This document shows positions 10,007 to 15,828 of a stretch of 64,000 nt of DNA, one piece after another. Made by a program: the position numbers and the translations under genes. The notes below the pieces were generated by a model. That model was not told where the DNA came from. It ran no database searches and saw nothing but the letters and a program-made list of their open reading frames with translations. This DNA comes from Deltaproteobacteria bacterium (GTDB lineage Bacteria; Desulfobacterota; Binatia; Binatales; Binataceae): assembly GCA_003135135.1 (NCBI GenBank), contig PLDK01000035.1, forward strand, positions 1 to 64,000. The letters are read 5' to 3'. The first letter of the stretch is position 1; each line of letters opens with the position of its first letter.

Positions 10007-10814
10007 GCTCGGGCTCATCGCGGGCAACGGCGTCTTCCCGCTCGAAGTGGCGCGCGCCGCACGCCAGCGCGGAATCAAAGTCATCGCCGTCGCGCACCTC
10101 AATGAAAGCGACCGCGCGCTTGACTCGGCGGCCGACGAAGTCACCTGGATCAAAGTCGGCGAGCTGCAGAAAATAATCGACGTTTTCAAAAACGCGGGAG
10201 TCTCGGAAGCCGCGATGGCCGGCGGCATCTCACGCGCGCGGCTGAAAGATTCTTTCGCACCCGACGCGCGCGCGCTCAAGATGCTGGCGGGAATCGGACG
10301 CTTCAGCGACGACACTGTGCTGCGCGGCGTCGCGAGTGAAGTCGAAGCCGAAGGAATCAAAATGATCGATCCGGTCCCGATGATCGAGCATTGGCTCGCG
10401 CGCGCCGGCGTCGGCGCCGGACCCGAGCCGACTCCCGCGCAAATCCGCGATCTCGAGCTCGCATTCGCGGTCGCGCGCCGGCTCGGCAGCTACGACATCG
10501 GCCAGACGGTCGCGGTCCGCGACGGGATGGTCGCTGCGGTGGAAGCGCTGGAGGGAACCGACGCCGCGCTGCGCCGCGCAGCGGCGCTGGTGGGCGCGGG
10601 CCTGGTGGTGGCCAAGGCGGCCAAACCGGGACAGGACATGCGCTTCGACCGTCCCGCGATTGGCCCGGCTACGGTGCAATTGCTCGCCGAGATCGGCGCG
10701 GCGATGCTGGGCGTCGAAGCTCAGGTCGCGCTGATTCTCGAACGCGAGCGCACGCTGGAGTTCGCGTGCGCGAAAAACGTGACGTTATACGGCTATGCGG
10801 ATTCCAGTGGTTGA
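9999..10814 (+). CDS. lpxI: UDP-2,3-diacylglucosamine diphosphatase LpxI
   Basis: DUF1009 family enzyme (271 aa) that hydrolyses UDP-2,3-diacylglucosamine to lipid X, replacing LpxH in alphaproteobacteria and many delta-type lineages. It starts with NKLGLIAGNGVFPLEVARAARQRG, the typical N-terminus; the C-terminal half has RFDRPAIGP and related family motifs. The GTG start overlaps the lpxA end by 8 bp and the stop overlaps the next gene by 20 bp, indicating tight coupling. No lpxH-like gene is seen in the window. Confidence 0.95.
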   Translation: MNKLGLIAGNGVFPLEVARAARQRGIKVIAVAHLNESDRALDSAADEVTWIKVGELQKIIDVFKNAGVSEAAMAGGISRARLKDSFAPDARALKMLAGIGRFSDDTVLRGVASEVEAEGIKMIDPVPMIEHWLARAGVGAGPEPTPAQIRDLELAFAVARRLGSYDIGQTVAVRDGMVAAVEALEGTDAALRRAAALVGAGLVVAKAAKPGQDMRFDRPAIGPATVQLLAEIGAAMLGVEAQVALILERERTLEFACAKNVTLYGYADSSG

Positions 10815-11757
10815 GCTGCGCGCTGCAGTGATTGGTGCGGGACGCCTGGGCACGCTGCACGCGCGCAAGTACGCCGCGATTTCGGGAATCAAGCTCGCAC
10901 ACGTCGTCGATATCGACGCCGAGCGGGCGCGCGCCGTGGCAACGGAAGTTGGCGCTACGGCGCTGGCCGACTACCGGATGCTGGCGGGCAAGGTGGACCT
11001 CGTGACGGTCGCGTCGCCCGGCGTGACGCATCATGAGATCGCATCCGCGATGCTGAAATCGGGCATCGACGTGCTGCTGGAAAAGCCGATGGCCGAGACG
11101 CTGGTGCAGGCGCGTGAACTGGCCGGGCTGGCGTCGTCGAGCGGCCGCATTCTTCAGATTGGCCACCTCGAGCGGTTCAATCCGGCGGTCGTTCATCTGC
11201 ATTCGATCGTGAAAAATCCCCGCTTCGTGGAATGTCATCGGCTCGCGCCGTTCACCGAGCGCGGCACCGACGTGGATGTGGTGCTCGATCTGATGGTGCA
11301 CGACCTCGACGTGATCCTGTCGGTGGCGCCTTCGGAAGTCGTGTCGCTCGAAGCGGTCGGGGTCGCGATCCTTACCGATCGAATCGATCTCGCCAACGCG
11401 CGCATCCGCTTCCAGAGCGGTCTCATCGCGAATCTGGTCACCAGCCGCGTGGCGCCCCGGCGCGAACGCAAGATTCGCTTCTTCCAGCCCGACGCGTATA
11501 TCTCGGTTGATTACGAGGCGCGCAGCATCCAGATGTATCGCAAAACTCCGCCGGCGCCGGGCGCGCAGTTCTCCACCATCTCGGCCGAGCAGATCGAATT
11601 CGGCGAAGGCGATCCGCTCGCCGACGAAGTCAATGCGTTCGTCGCGGCCGTTCGCAGCAGGTCCACGCCGGCCGTCAGCGCCGAGGACGGACTTCGGGTG
11701 ATGGAACTAACCGAGAGAATCAAGGAAGTGATGCTGACGGATTCGGTCGCGCCTTGA
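10795..11757 (+). CDS. Gfo/Idh/MocA family oxidoreductase in the lipid A cluster (GnnA-like candidate)
   Basis: NAD(P)-dependent sugar oxidoreductase, 320 aa. The Rossmann motif AAVIGAGRLGTLHARKY is at about residues 9-25, and the family catalytic-domain motif EKPMAETL is near residue 98. It overlaps lpxI by 20 bp and follows lpxA-lpxI. In Acidithiobacillus and Leptospira a protein of this family (GnnA) oxidises UDP-GlcNAc at C3 for amide-linked lipid A. A similar role is plausible from position but the partner aminotransferase GnnB is not in the window. Another LPS-sugar dehydrogenase is possible. Confidence 0.85.
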   Translation: MRIPVVELRAAVIGAGRLGTLHARKYAAISGIKLAHVVDIDAERARAVATEVGATALADYRMLAGKVDLVTVASPGVTHHEIASAMLKSGIDVLLEKPMAETLVQARELAGLASSSGRILQIGHLERFNPAVVHLHSIVKNPRFVECHRLAPFTERGTDVDVVLDLMVHDLDVILSVAPSEVVSLEAVGVAILTDRIDLANARIRFQSGLIANLVTSRVAPRRERKIRFFQPDAYISVDYEARSIQMYRKTPPAPGAQFSTISAEQIEFGEGDPLADEVNAFVAAVRSRSTPAVSAEDGLRVMELTERIKEVMLTDSVAP

Positions 11758-11791: not shown

Positions 11792-12241
11792 ATGCGTCGG
11801 ATCAGGCTCAGGATTCTCGGCGGTCTGGTGCTCGCAGCCGGCGCCGCCGCGTTTCTCATCTTCATCGCGGCCTCGGATTGCACAACGGTGACCGGCAACG
11901 ACGAAGTCGTTGTCGACGTGTCCGCGATGCGTCCCGGTAGTGCGCGGCTTTTCTCTTACACCGATGACGCAGGCAAGCGGCTGCGCTTCGTGCTCGCGCG
12001 CGGGGTCGATGGCAAGGTGCGCTCGGTGTTCGACGCATGCCGCCAGTGCTCCGCGTTCCATCGCGGCTACCGGGTGGCTGGGGGCGAACTGATTTGCCGG
12101 GTGTGCGGGAATCACTACCCAGTCGAACGGATGACGGAAGGCCAGGCGTCGTGCGTGCCCGTCAGCTTGTCGCACAAGGACGATTCCGGAATCGTGCACA
12201 TCAAGACCGCGGACCTTGAAGCCGGACATACGCTCTTCTGA
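11792..12241 (+). CDS. membrane-anchored cysteine-rich protein, DUF2318 (FtrD)-like
   Basis: A 149-aa protein with one N-terminal membrane segment (ILGGLVLAAGAAAFLIFIAA) and a periplasmic domain. The domain has paired cysteines CRQC and CRVCGNHYPV, the pattern of DUF2318 Fe-S/metal-binding proteins such as the iron-transport component FtrD. GTG at 11789 directly precedes the chosen ATG; either could serve. It is followed by SCO1/SenC and CYCGC-motif genes, so handling of copper or iron outside the cytoplasm is likely. The ligand is not readable. Confidence 0.7.
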   Translation: MRRIRLRILGGLVLAAGAAAFLIFIAASDCTTVTGNDEVVVDVSAMRPGSARLFSYTDDAGKRLRFVLARGVDGKVRSVFDACRQCSAFHRGYRVAGGELICRVCGNHYPVERMTEGQASCVPVSLSHKDDSGIVHIKTADLEAGHTLF

Positions 12242-12270
12242 CTATCTGAGTAGCTATAGCAAGACCATGG

Positions 12271-12299
12271 TTGATATTCGCAAGTTAGTAACGGATATA
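12271..12299 (+). promoter_or_regulatory. candidate sigma70 promoter of the SCO1/SenC gene
   Basis: TTGATA, 17 bp, then GATATA (overlapping TATATA) in an unusually AT-rich stretch. The -10 box ends 18 bp before the ATG at 12318, which has AGGA 6 nt upstream. This suggests the SCO1 and CYCGC-motif genes can be transcribed separately from the LPS operon. Confidence 0.5.
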
Positions 12300-12317
12300 T
12301 AACCACTAGGATATGGT

Positions 12318-12908
12318 ATGAGTATCCGGAGTAATCTCAGGTCTTTCGCTATCATCGCAGGAATGACGTCGAGCCTGTTCGCGGCTGCCGGATGCCACGG
12401 CGACTCATCCGCGACTGCGTGGAACTGTCTCACCGACACCAAGCTCGTCGATCAGCATGGCAACCAGGTCTCGCTCGCGTCGCTCAAGGGCAAACCGCTG
12501 GTGGTGGATTTCATCTATACGTCATGCCCGGGGGAGTGCAAAATGGAGACGGCGAAGTTGACGAACGTCGCGCTCCGGCTGGGGTCCGACCTCGGTTCGA
12601 AGGTCACGATCGTTTCGATCAGCGTCGATCCCGAGCATGACGGCCCCAAGCAATTGCTGGATTACGCACGTCAGCAGGGGGCGGACGAGAAAGGATGGTA
12701 TTTCCTGACCGGAGGCCCCGCCGACATCGATACAGCGCTGGCGGGCTTCAAGCTCAGCCGGCAAGTCATGCCGGATGGTTCGATTGGCCACCTGGTCGAC
12801 ATGATGCTGATCGGACCGGATGGGCGGTTGGTGCATGAATACAACGGCGAGCTCGTAAAAGCCCAGGATATCGTCGACGACGTCAGGAAGACCCTGAACA
12901 AGAGTTGA
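12318..12908 (+). CDS. SCO1/SenC family copper chaperone or thiol-disulfide protein
   Basis: Thioredoxin-fold protein of the SCO1/SenC/PrrC family (196 aa), involved in Cu delivery to cytochrome c oxidase CuA or redox sensing. An N-terminal signal ends in a lipobox-like FAAAGC, so it is probably a lipoprotein. The Cu-binding CxxxC motif is CPGEC, after VVDFIYTS, and the conserved His is in GHLVDMMLIG. All copper ligands are present. Its own promoter is visible, and the CYCGC-motif gene follows 10 bp later. No cytochrome oxidase subunit is in the window. Confidence 0.92.
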   Translation: MSIRSNLRSFAIIAGMTSSLFAAAGCHGDSSATAWNCLTDTKLVDQHGNQVSLASLKGKPLVVDFIYTSCPGECKMETAKLTNVALRLGSDLGSKVTIVSISVDPEHDGPKQLLDYARQQGADEKGWYFLTGGPADIDTALAGFKLSRQVMPDGSIGHLVDMMLIGPDGRLVHEYNGELVKAQDIVDDVRKTLNKS

Positions 12909-12918
12909 GAGATTCGCC

Positions 12919-13383
12919 ATGAGACGAGCAATTATTTTCGGCTGCTCGGTTGCGGCGATTCTGGCGCTGGCATATTTGTGGCCGTCGCTCGGCGGTTCAT
13001 CGGCGGACAACGGCGGCGCGCGCGGCGCGATGTGCATCGCGGGTCATTGCTGCTGCGCGGGACGGGCGGAGGCCGAGACCGTCGCGGCCAACGCGGCGCA
13101 GGGGCGTTTGACGCTCGACCCAAACCAGTTCACCGGTCCGGTAAAGCAGGCGTACACAATTGCGGAGAAAAACCCCGCGCTGCTGGCGGAACTGCATTGC
13201 TATTGCGGATGTGACAGGACGGAAGGTCATCAGAATCTGCTCGATTGTTATCGCGGCCGCCATGGCGAGACCTGCGAAATCTGCACCGAGGAGGCCCTGC
13301 TGGCGGATCGGATGTCGGAGCAGCGCTTGCCGCTCGATCAGATACGCGACGCGATCCGCAGGCGGTTCGCTTCCGACAACTGA
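12919..13383 (+). CDS. exported CYCGC-motif protein
   Basis: A 154-aa protein with an N-terminal membrane/signal segment (IIFGCSVAAILALAYLWPSL). It then has a Cys cluster CIAGHCCCAG and a C-terminal domain beginning CYCGCDRTEGHQNLLDCY, followed by CEICTEE. This resembles the PCYCGC-motif proteins, which are extracytoplasmic and of unknown function. The density of cysteine and histidine suggests metal binding. It is 10 bp downstream of the SCO1/SenC gene and surely co-transcribed. The extra N-terminal CxxxxCCC cluster is not part of the usual motif as I know it. Confidence 0.75.
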   Translation: MRRAIIFGCSVAAILALAYLWPSLGGSSADNGGARGAMCIAGHCCCAGRAEAETVAANAAQGRLTLDPNQFTGPVKQAYTIAEKNPALLAELHCYCGCDRTEGHQNLLDCYRGRHGETCEICTEEALLADRMSEQRLPLDQIRDAIRRRFASDN

Positions 13384-13509: not shown

Positions 13510-14399
13510 ATGGCGTCAGACCGCCCCATGAGGTTGCCCGATTTCATTGGGCTCGGGCCCCCCGTACCGGCACGACTTGGCTGCATCGCGTGCTTGTGGG
13601 TCATGTCGATCTGCCTTATGGAATCAAGGAGACGCAATTCTTCACCACCTATTACTCGAAGGGAATCGATTGGTATGCGCACCATTTCCGCTATGCGAAC
13701 GGTGACCGCAAGATCGCGGAGATTTGCCCGTACTTCAACGCGATGAAGGCTCCTGCGCGCATCCACCAACATCTGCCGGGCTGCAAATTCCTCGTGACGT
13801 TCCGCAATCCCGTCGATCATGCCTATTCGACTTACAAAATGCTGGTACGCGGCGCGTTCGTGCGTGGAACGTTCGATGAGGTGCTCAACCTGCGCCCGCA
13901 TATCGACGACGGCAACCGCTACGCGAAGCATCTGACGGCATGGTTTGACCAGTTCGGCCCCGAGCGTTTTCTGATCATGCGCTATGAAGAGCTGCGCGAC
14001 GATCCCCAGGGCTACCTGGACCAGGTGTGCGACTTTATTGGTACGGCGCGAATCCCGATTTCCGATCATGCCCGCAGGCAGCGGCAGGTTAATTTGATCG
14101 AGCGCGCACCGAAAAGCCGCAAGCTCGCCCAGAATGCACGGCACCTCGGATACTGGCTGAAAAGGCGTCATGCCTACGGCCTTGTCGCCGCGCTCCGACG
14201 CGCCGGCGTATGGGAATTTTGTAACGGCCGTGGCGAAATATTTCCGCCGCTTTCGCCCGAGCAGCGAGCGATGTTGACCGAGCGCTATCTACCCGAGGTC
14301 GAGGCGCTCGAGGAGCTGCTGAAGATCGATTTTTCCCAATGGAAAAAGCCCGGCGCTGTGCCGCGCCAAGCGGCGGCGCTTGGTGCCGGGGGCACCTGA
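13510..14399 (+). pseudogene. sulfotransferase, broken by a one-base frameshift
   Basis: PAPS-dependent sulfotransferase fold. The frame from ATG 13510 or 13528 gives RLPDFIGLGPP. The sequence then continues, only in the next frame, as RTGTTWLHRVLVGHVDLP and on to the stop at 14399. Joined, this is the classical 5'-phosphosulfate loop PPRTGTTWLH. The 3'-phosphate motif FRNPVDHAYSTYKM is intact in the second frame. The break is in a run of six C (13558-13563) where seven are needed. The ORF track lists only the downstream part from 13590, which lacks the PAPS loop. It may be a real mutation, a phase-variable tract or a sequencing error. Acceptor unknown. Confidence 0.88.
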
Positions 14400-14625: not shown

Positions 14626-15828
14626 ATGCCGTTGAATGCCGAAGCGCCGCCGCCGCTTGATGACCGCCTGAAAGAAACCGCACGCCGGCGCCGCATCATG
14701 ATCGTTGCGGGCGAGGCGTCGGGCGATCTTCATGGCGGCGATTTGGCGCGGGAAATTCTCGCGCGCGATCCGTCGTGCGACCTGTTCGGAATTGCGGGCG
14801 AGAAGATGCGCGCGGCCGGGGTGCGGGCGATCGTCGCGACGGAAGACATCCACGGGCTGGGACTTTCGGAACTGGCTTCCACGATTGGACGCACGATTGG
14901 CGCGTTTCGCGCCCTGCGTCGAATCATCAGGCGGGAGAAGCCGGACCTTGTGATCCTGATTGACTACGCGGAGTTCAACCTGATTCTCTCCGGCACGGCC
15001 AGGCGCGCGGGCGTGCCGGTGCTCTACTACATCACGCCGCAAGTCTGGGCGTGGCGGCGCGGCCGAATCGACAAGCTGGTGGATCGCGCGGGCCGCCTCG
15101 CGGTGGTGCTGCCGTTCGAGGCCGAACTATTCCATCGCGCGGGCGAGCGCGTTTCCTTCGTAGGGCATCCGCTGCTCGATCGGGTCGCCACGGTCCATAG
15201 CCGGGAGGAGACGCTCAAGCGCCATGGATTCCCGCCGCGGGCGCGAATCATCTCGATCCTGCCGGGCAGCCGCCGCGCCGAAGTTCGCTACCTGCTGAAT
15301 CCGATGGTCAAGGCGGCGCGGATTGTCGCGCGCGATCATGGCCTTGAAATGGCACTCGCCCTGGCGCCGACCCTGACTCAGGCCGAACTCGCCGAGGTTG
15401 GGCGCACCGATCTCGCGGGAATCAGGATTGTCGAGCGCGACACATACAACCTGGTCGCGGCGAGCGAACTCGCACTGGTTGCGTCGGGGACCGCCACGCT
15501 GGAGACGGCGCTGCTCGGATGCCCCGAAGTTATCGCCTACAAAGTGTCGCCACTTACCTATATCCTAGGGCGGATGCTGGTGACGGGAGTGGATTTTATC
15601 GGGATGCCGAATATTCTGGCGGGCCGGCAAATCGTGCCCGAACTGATCCAGCGCGACGTGACTGCGGATAAGCTGGTACGAGCCGCCGAGCCGCTCTTGA
15701 GCGACACCATACGCGCGGAAACGGTGGCCGCGCTGAAGGCGTTGCGCGAGAAGCTCGGATCGCCGGGAGCGGCGGGCCGGGTCGCGACGATCGCGCTCGA
15801 GATGATCGCGTCCAGGACGGCCGCATGA
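14626..15828 (+). CDS. lpxB: lipid-A-disaccharide synthase LpxB
   Basis: GT19 glycosyltransferase (400 aa) that condenses UDP-2,3-diacylglucosamine with lipid X to make the lipid A disaccharide, at the inner membrane surface. After a 24-residue basic extension the family start IMIVAGEASGDLHGGDLA is seen. AEVRYLLNPMVKAA and ASGTATLETAL match the C-terminal nucleotide-binding half. The stop overlaps the msbA start (ATGA). The 226 bp before it show no gene, promoter or clear repeat. Confidence 0.97.
   Translation: MPLNAEAPPPLDDRLKETARRRRIMIVAGEASGDLHGGDLAREILARDPSCDLFGIAGEKMRAAGVRAIVATEDIHGLGLSELASTIGRTIGAFRALRRIIRREKPDLVILIDYAEFNLILSGTARRAGVPVLYYITPQVWAWRRGRIDKLVDRAGRLAVVLPFEAELFHRAGERVSFVGHPLLDRVATVHSREETLKRHGFPPRARIISILPGSRRAEVRYLLNPMVKAARIVARDHGLEMALALAPTLTQAELAEVGRTDLAGIRIVERDTYNLVAASELALVASGTATLETALLGCPEVIAYKVSPLTYILGRMLVTGVDFIGMPNILAGRQIVPELIQRDVTADKLVRAAEPLLSDTIRAETVAALKALREKLGSPGAAGRVATIALEMIASRTAA

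Follow-up and report, generated by a model that had tools for sequence, protein, structure and literature searches.

The window is a stretch of 64,000 nucleotides from contig C26 of a genome (G000, 3.73 Mb) whose host is most likely a Candidatus Binatus species of the family Binataceae, and to which six genomes (G001 to G006) are congeners. On its + strand, positions 11792-13383 hold three open reading frames for an FtrD-like protein (FtrD), a SCO1/SenC protein (SCO) and a CYCXC/OS_HP4 protein (CYC), so that the preliminary description of a cysteine-rich trio between gfo/idh and lpxB was borne out in its frames, profiles and cysteine clusters (Table 1). FtrD scored 66.5 bits against PF10080 (cut-off 26.3), SCO scored 86.9 bits against SCO1-SenC PF02630 (cut-off 22.8), and CYC scored 35.6 bits against PCYCGC PF13798 (cut-off 25) and 110.3 bits against CYCXC NF041379 (cut-off 90). 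Alignment with Bacillus subtilis Sco confirmed that the SCO has all copper ligands, as had been claimed, and CYC indeed carries an additional CIAGHCCC cluster (C39, C44-46) besides CYCGC (C94, 96, 98), C110 and C119xxC122. All three products are predicted to be membrane-anchored or lipoproteins and to face the periplasm. Purifying selection was detected on all three genes, with dN/dS values of 0.29-0.51 as compared with 0.15-0.22 for LpxB (pairs with G001, G005 and G006), and FtrD changes at a higher rate than the genes next to it (0.43-0.51 within the close group). A sulfotransferase ORF (PF13469; window 13527-14399) lies between CYC and lpxB and is missing at the same place in G001, G002, G005 and G006; its frame seems to be interrupted close to the 5' end by a small frameshift, and its true start is thus uncertain.

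Table 1. Positions in the window of the trio, its cysteine and ligand motifs, the spacer and the flanking genes.
Feature	Position	Strand	Remarks
gfo/idh oxidoreductase	10795..11757	+	left flank of insertion site; profile match, junction comparison
FtrD-like protein (PF10080)	11792..12241	+	N-terminal membrane anchor and periplasmic domain, predicted Rieske-like fold
FtrD C83-x-x-C86	12038..12049	+	at first Rieske ligand position; invariant in 17 homologues
FtrD C102-x-x-C105	12095..12106	+	at second Rieske ligand position; invariant in 17 homologues
AT-rich spacer, deletion scar	12242..12317	no strand	left: FtrD-SCOa junction with remnant of SCOa start; right: SCOb leader
SCO1/SenC lipoprotein, a copper chaperone of the SCOb type (from the CYC-linked clade)	12318..12908	+	profile, PDB relatives, tree
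SCO copper ligands C70-x-x-x-C74	12525..12539	+	alignment with Bacillus subtilis Sco
SCO copper ligand H158	12789..12791	+	alignment with Bacillus subtilis Sco
CYCXC/OS_HP4 (PCYCGC) membrane-anchored protein	12919..13383	+	SCO-linked paralogue; Cys form of selenoprotein family
CYC CIAGHCCC cluster	13033..13056	+	lies between the membrane anchor and the domain; C-x-x-G-x-C-C conserved among SCO-linked paralogues
CYCGC motif (C94, C96, C98)	13198..13212	+	three Cys invariant in 40 homologues
CYC C119-x-x-C122	13273..13284	+	first Cys is Sec (UGA) in relatives from other families of the class
lpxB	14626..15828	+	right flank of insertion site; sequence identity across family, junction comparison

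The gfo/idh-lpxB junction was compared across genomes of the family Binataceae, in which the relatives that have a name in public records are metagenome-assembled genomes (MAGs) and the genes of the relatives were called by a simple home-made caller and tblastn. In about ten genomes from several genera the junction was empty, with gfo/idh directly abutting lpxB, and in the genera g2, g7, g14 and g17 it held SCO alone. FtrD-SCO together with a putative outer-membrane protein (OMP), CopC and CopD was found in G003 and G004 and also in the named MAGs L187 and L188, and the longest arrangement, FtrD-SCOa-small protein-OMP-CopC-CopD-SCOb-CYC, in G002. FtrD-SCO-CYC occupied the junction in the window genome, G001 and G005, and FtrD-SCO in G006, where SCOb was kept without CYC. 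CopC and CopD of the copper loci were confirmed by Pfam; CopC is present in G002-G004 and missing from G000, G001, G005 and G006, and CopD, which G002-G004 also have, gave only marginal matches in G000, on other contigs. In the copper operons a small exported protein of about 84-108 amino acids, with an xICHPxQ/P-type motif, a PDPPPPK-like end and no Pfam match, recurs between FtrD and the outer-membrane gene (L037:3953-4237, L186:8124-8450, L190, L194, L196, L197, L199, L204 and L206). Two putative outer-membrane proteins, likewise with no Pfam match, recur in Binataceae copper loci (L037:4364-5245 and L034:9049-9867), and in two MAGs the copper operon is split between SCO and OMP by a gene, encoded on the other strand, that resembles nucleotide-sugar epimerases (L187:8030-8974 and L188:2490-3440).

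The relation between the long arrangement and the trio is recorded in the 76 bp spacer between FtrD and SCO (38% GC vs 62%). In a sequence alignment the beginning of the spacer, CTATCTGAGTAGCTATAGCAAG and shortly afterwards ATGGTTGATATTCGC, matches G002 at the junction of FtrD and SCOa and G003 at the start of SCOa (ATGGTTGATTTCCGC), and its end, GGATATGGTATGAGTATCC...GTAATCTCAG, matches G002 at the SCOb leader and start. Since the spacer thus joins an FtrD-SCOa junction to an SCOb leader, both ends of a deleted SCOa-OMP-CopC-CopD stretch are kept in the window. As far as sequence can tell, this alignment demonstrates that the trio derives from FtrD-SCOa-(small protein)-OMP-CopC-CopD-SCOb-CYC through a deletion that reached from SCOa to CopD. 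LpxB identity to the window decreases from 95-96% in G001, G005 and G006 to 92% in G002 and 80-83% in G003 and G004, and with this order it is parsimonious to assume one deletion, in the common ancestor of the four genomes with the reduced form, and a later loss of CYC in G006. The preliminary description had taken the AT-rich spacer for a promoter that suggested independent control. No sigma-70-like site was found in it, its length is not conserved (it is shorter in two congeners) and it is accounted for as a deletion scar, for which reasons this proposal was abandoned. The deletion of SCOa through CopD, the loss of CYC in G006 and dN/dS values relaxed compared with LpxB would also fit a decaying remnant with little function left after the loss of CopC and CopD; however, all three frames are intact in three species, dN/dS is well below 1 and the key cysteines are kept, and we therefore consider such decay very unlikely.

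Our comparison of gene neighbourhoods and trees indicated that SCO and CYC belong together. The trio is syntenic in G000, G001 and G005, occurs in G002 with the extra copper genes, and recurs at other sites in genus g17 (G034:C9, G034:C209 and G025:C41), with an FtrD-like gene within about 3.5 kb, in genomes whose estimated contamination is 5-8%. SCO and CYC are adjacent at each of these g17 sites, and a decayed copy of the pair is found at G025:C220. Conservation of the neighbours, which the preliminary description had put forward as the test of its grouping, therefore holds in four Binatus genomes and at other g17 sites. In a tree built from 38 SCO domains, the SCO of the window fell into one group with the copy of G006 and with the SCOs linked to CYC in G001, G002 (SCOb), G005, G025 and G034 (support 100/99), a second CYC-linked set was the sister of this group (94/85), and the resident junction SCOs, including SCOa of G002, formed a separate clade (98/93). 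The SCO-linked CYCs likewise clustered, with moderate support (two changes, one intruder). Judged by these groupings and by gene order, the data show SCOb and CYC to be co-inherited as a pair, and the fact that CYC travels as a fixed pair with SCO suggests that it is the redox partner of SCO.

The cysteines of CYC speak for a redox activity. Those of the CYCGC motif as well as C110, C119 and C122 are invariant in 40 homologues, when in-frame TGA is read as Cys/Sec, and in genomes of families f2 and f5 such an in-frame TGA stands at the first position of C119xxC122. Interchange of cysteine and selenocysteine at a given position is characteristic of redox-active residues, and the correspondence of C119-x-x-C122 to U-x-x-C in selenoprotein relatives thus marks CYC as redox-active. 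The window CYC has a Cys codon at the Sec position and hence is not the selenoprotein form, although Cys forms count as members of NF041379, as the family model is named '(seleno)protein'. The gene selA was not found in G000 or G001 and is present in most of the family, and selenocysteine use may therefore have been lost recently in these two genomes; loss of the selenocysteine machinery was rejected as the cause of the Cys form, since most Binataceae keep selA yet use Cys. The AF2 model of CYC reached a pLDDT of about 97-98 over residues 71-150; this predicted fold had no PDB match in Foldseek, and profile searches of PDB sequences with CYC and FtrD gave no meaningful match. A CcmH-like identity, suspected from a C-terminal CxxC followed by two helices, was discarded, as no CcmH appeared among the Foldseek PDB matches even at E<=10. 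OS_HP4 has been listed with its UxxC motif and no function (PMC13188914, PMC9312934). CYC resembles OS_HP4/CYCXC proteins in exceeding the family cut-offs (PF13798/NF041379) and in its U/CxxC motif, and differs from the selenoproteins among them in being a Cys form and an SCO-linked paralogue with an added CxxGxCCC cluster.

Away from SCO, CYC is found in other company. In most genomes of the Binataceae it stands in a nadA-nudix-CYC-DedA string without SCO, and the basal role of CYC is accordingly not specific to SCO; this basal copy (G000:C1:32503-32766 in the window genome, and family-wide) is part of a conserved nadA-nudix-CYC-DedA-histidine kinase-response regulator string. In other families of the phylum CYC precedes TPR, ResB, CcsA, ResA-like and CcdA-like genes, downstream of Rnf-like genes, and is also found near a P-type ATPase of the copper type that has two HMA domains (TPR, ResB, CcsA, thioredoxin-like and ATPase neighbours were assigned by Pfam, CcdA and Rnf by sequence appearance only). 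The place of CYC before these TPR-ResB-CcsA-ResA-CcdA-like genes in several families, and the fact that most Binataceae CYC copies are not SCO-linked, would agree with a general periplasmic role in thiol-disulfide exchange or cytochrome c maturation, with copper genes as incidental neighbours. The shared inheritance of SCOb and CYC and the repeated linkage of FtrD with CopC, CopD and SCO argue against such a role for the trio, which we regard as rather unlikely.

FtrD contains two CxxC motifs, both invariant among 17 homologues. Its AF2 model (mean pLDDT 85) matched Rieske ferredoxins in Foldseek with a probability of 1.00 (best E 3.9e-4; TM-score by target 0.55-0.58 for several), and in the hhalign alignment C83 coincides with the first Rieske Cys and C102xxC105G with CxxHG, at a weak score and in a consistent register. 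As both Rieske His are replaced by Cys (CxxC...CxxC vs CxH...CxxH), FtrD is to be regarded as Rieske-like and not as a Rieske protein. According to PMC11966278, the FtrD/DUF2318 family is not a member of any known redox family, and its Campylobacter member FetA belongs to the iron uptake cluster FetMP-FetABCDEF (PMC10783030). The PF10080 domain with two CxxC motifs is what FtrD has in common with the FtrABCD and FetMP-FetABCDEF systems of ferrous iron uptake, and would be the reason to assign the trio to iron uptake as well. However, no FTR1-type permease lies next to the trio, the FTR1 permeases of G000 being on contigs C46 and C28, and the partners of FtrD in the Binataceae are SCO, CopC and CopD: among 24 FtrD-like loci in this family and its close kin, 19 are beside SCO or CopC/CopD, four are without them and one is on a contig ending too early to tell. 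Iron uptake is thus, in our estimate, the most improbable function of the trio. Elsewhere in the phylum the best-scoring PF10080 loci had no SCO, CopC, CopD or FTR1 match within 1.5 kb, and the recurrent neighbours of PF10080 genes look, by sequence appearance, like ABC transporter permeases and ATPases; these loci resemble the Campylobacter Fet cluster. FtrD/DUF2318, known from iron uptake, is met here in copper operons and with a Rieske-like predicted fold.

In summary, the explanation that we favour, and hold to be somewhat more probable than its negation, is that the trio represents a copper-metallation cassette in reduced form, with CYC as redox partner of SCO, and that it serves oxidases in trans. 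SCO would bind copper and help to load it into the copper sites of haem-copper oxidases whose genes lie elsewhere, CYC would act through C119-x-x-C122 as the thiol partner that keeps the SCO CxxxC reduced or resolves mixed disulfides, and FtrD, as a Rieske-like four-cysteine protein, may supply or store electrons for copper handling. Points against this explanation are that CYC stands without SCO in most genomes of the family and that G006 has SCOb without CYC, as well as the fast evolution of FtrD, the moderate support for the CYC clustering and the weak score of the Rieske profile match. Reduction of SCO by CYC is proposed on the precedent of Bradyrhizobium, where TlpA reduces ScoI (PMC6696091). 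As in the TlpA-ScoI-CoxB system of CuA assembly, a membrane-anchored thiol reductant would be combined with a SCO chaperone that serves the copper sites of oxidases (PMC6696091); in contrast to it, the reductant is not a thioredoxin but a protein of different fold, without PDB match and with a Cys/Sec U/CxxC motif, and the CYC and SCO genes are adjacent. The preliminary description had suggested instead a relay of copper or iron among the three proteins, the copper part of which is supported by the CopC, CopD and SCO partners; its iron part is not supported, as no FTR1 lies nearby. In such a relay the CxxGxCCC cluster of CYC and the FtrD cysteines would bind Cu(I) and load SCO, copper being passed from hand to hand, and the copper gene context, the extra C-x-x-G-x-C-C cluster of SCO-linked CYC copies and a SCO with all ligands are in its favour. 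However, the conserved core motif of CYC is a Cys/Sec redox pair, its UxxC form indicating thiol redox rather than metal passing, and the FtrD cysteines are at Rieske positions, suggesting a fixed cofactor; we thus consider the relay unlikely, though worth keeping in mind. The widespread CYCXC/PCYCGC family, of which a selenoprotein form exists, has no function published in the literature searched, and the pairing with SCO together with the place before cytochrome c maturation genes elsewhere provides a first testable role for it.

Moreover, the G002 operon resembles the Bacillus subtilis system of YcnJ (CopC-CopD) and Sco/CtaK, which supports haem-copper oxidases under copper limitation (PMC13344008), in having CopC, CopD and SCO. 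It differs from YcnJ systems in its FtrD-like protein, OMP and CYC, which are not reported for them, and the window genome differs further in that CopC and a confident CopD have been lost from it. According to a recent study of CopC-CopD import (PMC13344008), no associated reductase is known for YcnJ, and FtrD beside CopC-CopD is a candidate for one. More speculatively, and with only a small chance of being right, the copper-import and metallation operon of the Binatia could have a redox arm of its own, in which FtrD (Rieske fold, four Cys ligands) would provide electrons to CopC-CopD and SCO or act as their periplasmic Cu(II) reductase, with CYC as a dedicated SCO reductase.

With regard to the targets, it had been pointed out that no oxidase gene is nearby, which is correct; four COX1-type haem-copper oxidase genes are present in G000, none of them adjacent to the trio. 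The SCO is expected to bind copper and to take part in oxidase assembly, and the likeliest setting appears to be that the trio acts in trans on these haem-copper oxidases. A copper monooxygenase (PmoA) was dismissed as the target, being absent from the window genome and not tracking CopCD in its presence across the family. A second SCO is encoded on G000:C38, beside TlpA and a CoxII-like protein. The CoxII-like protein next to this second SCO (G000:C38; L034:7366-7674) has an altered CuA motif (GNCDSRCGCATVCM), in which a His is missing and an extra Cys is present.
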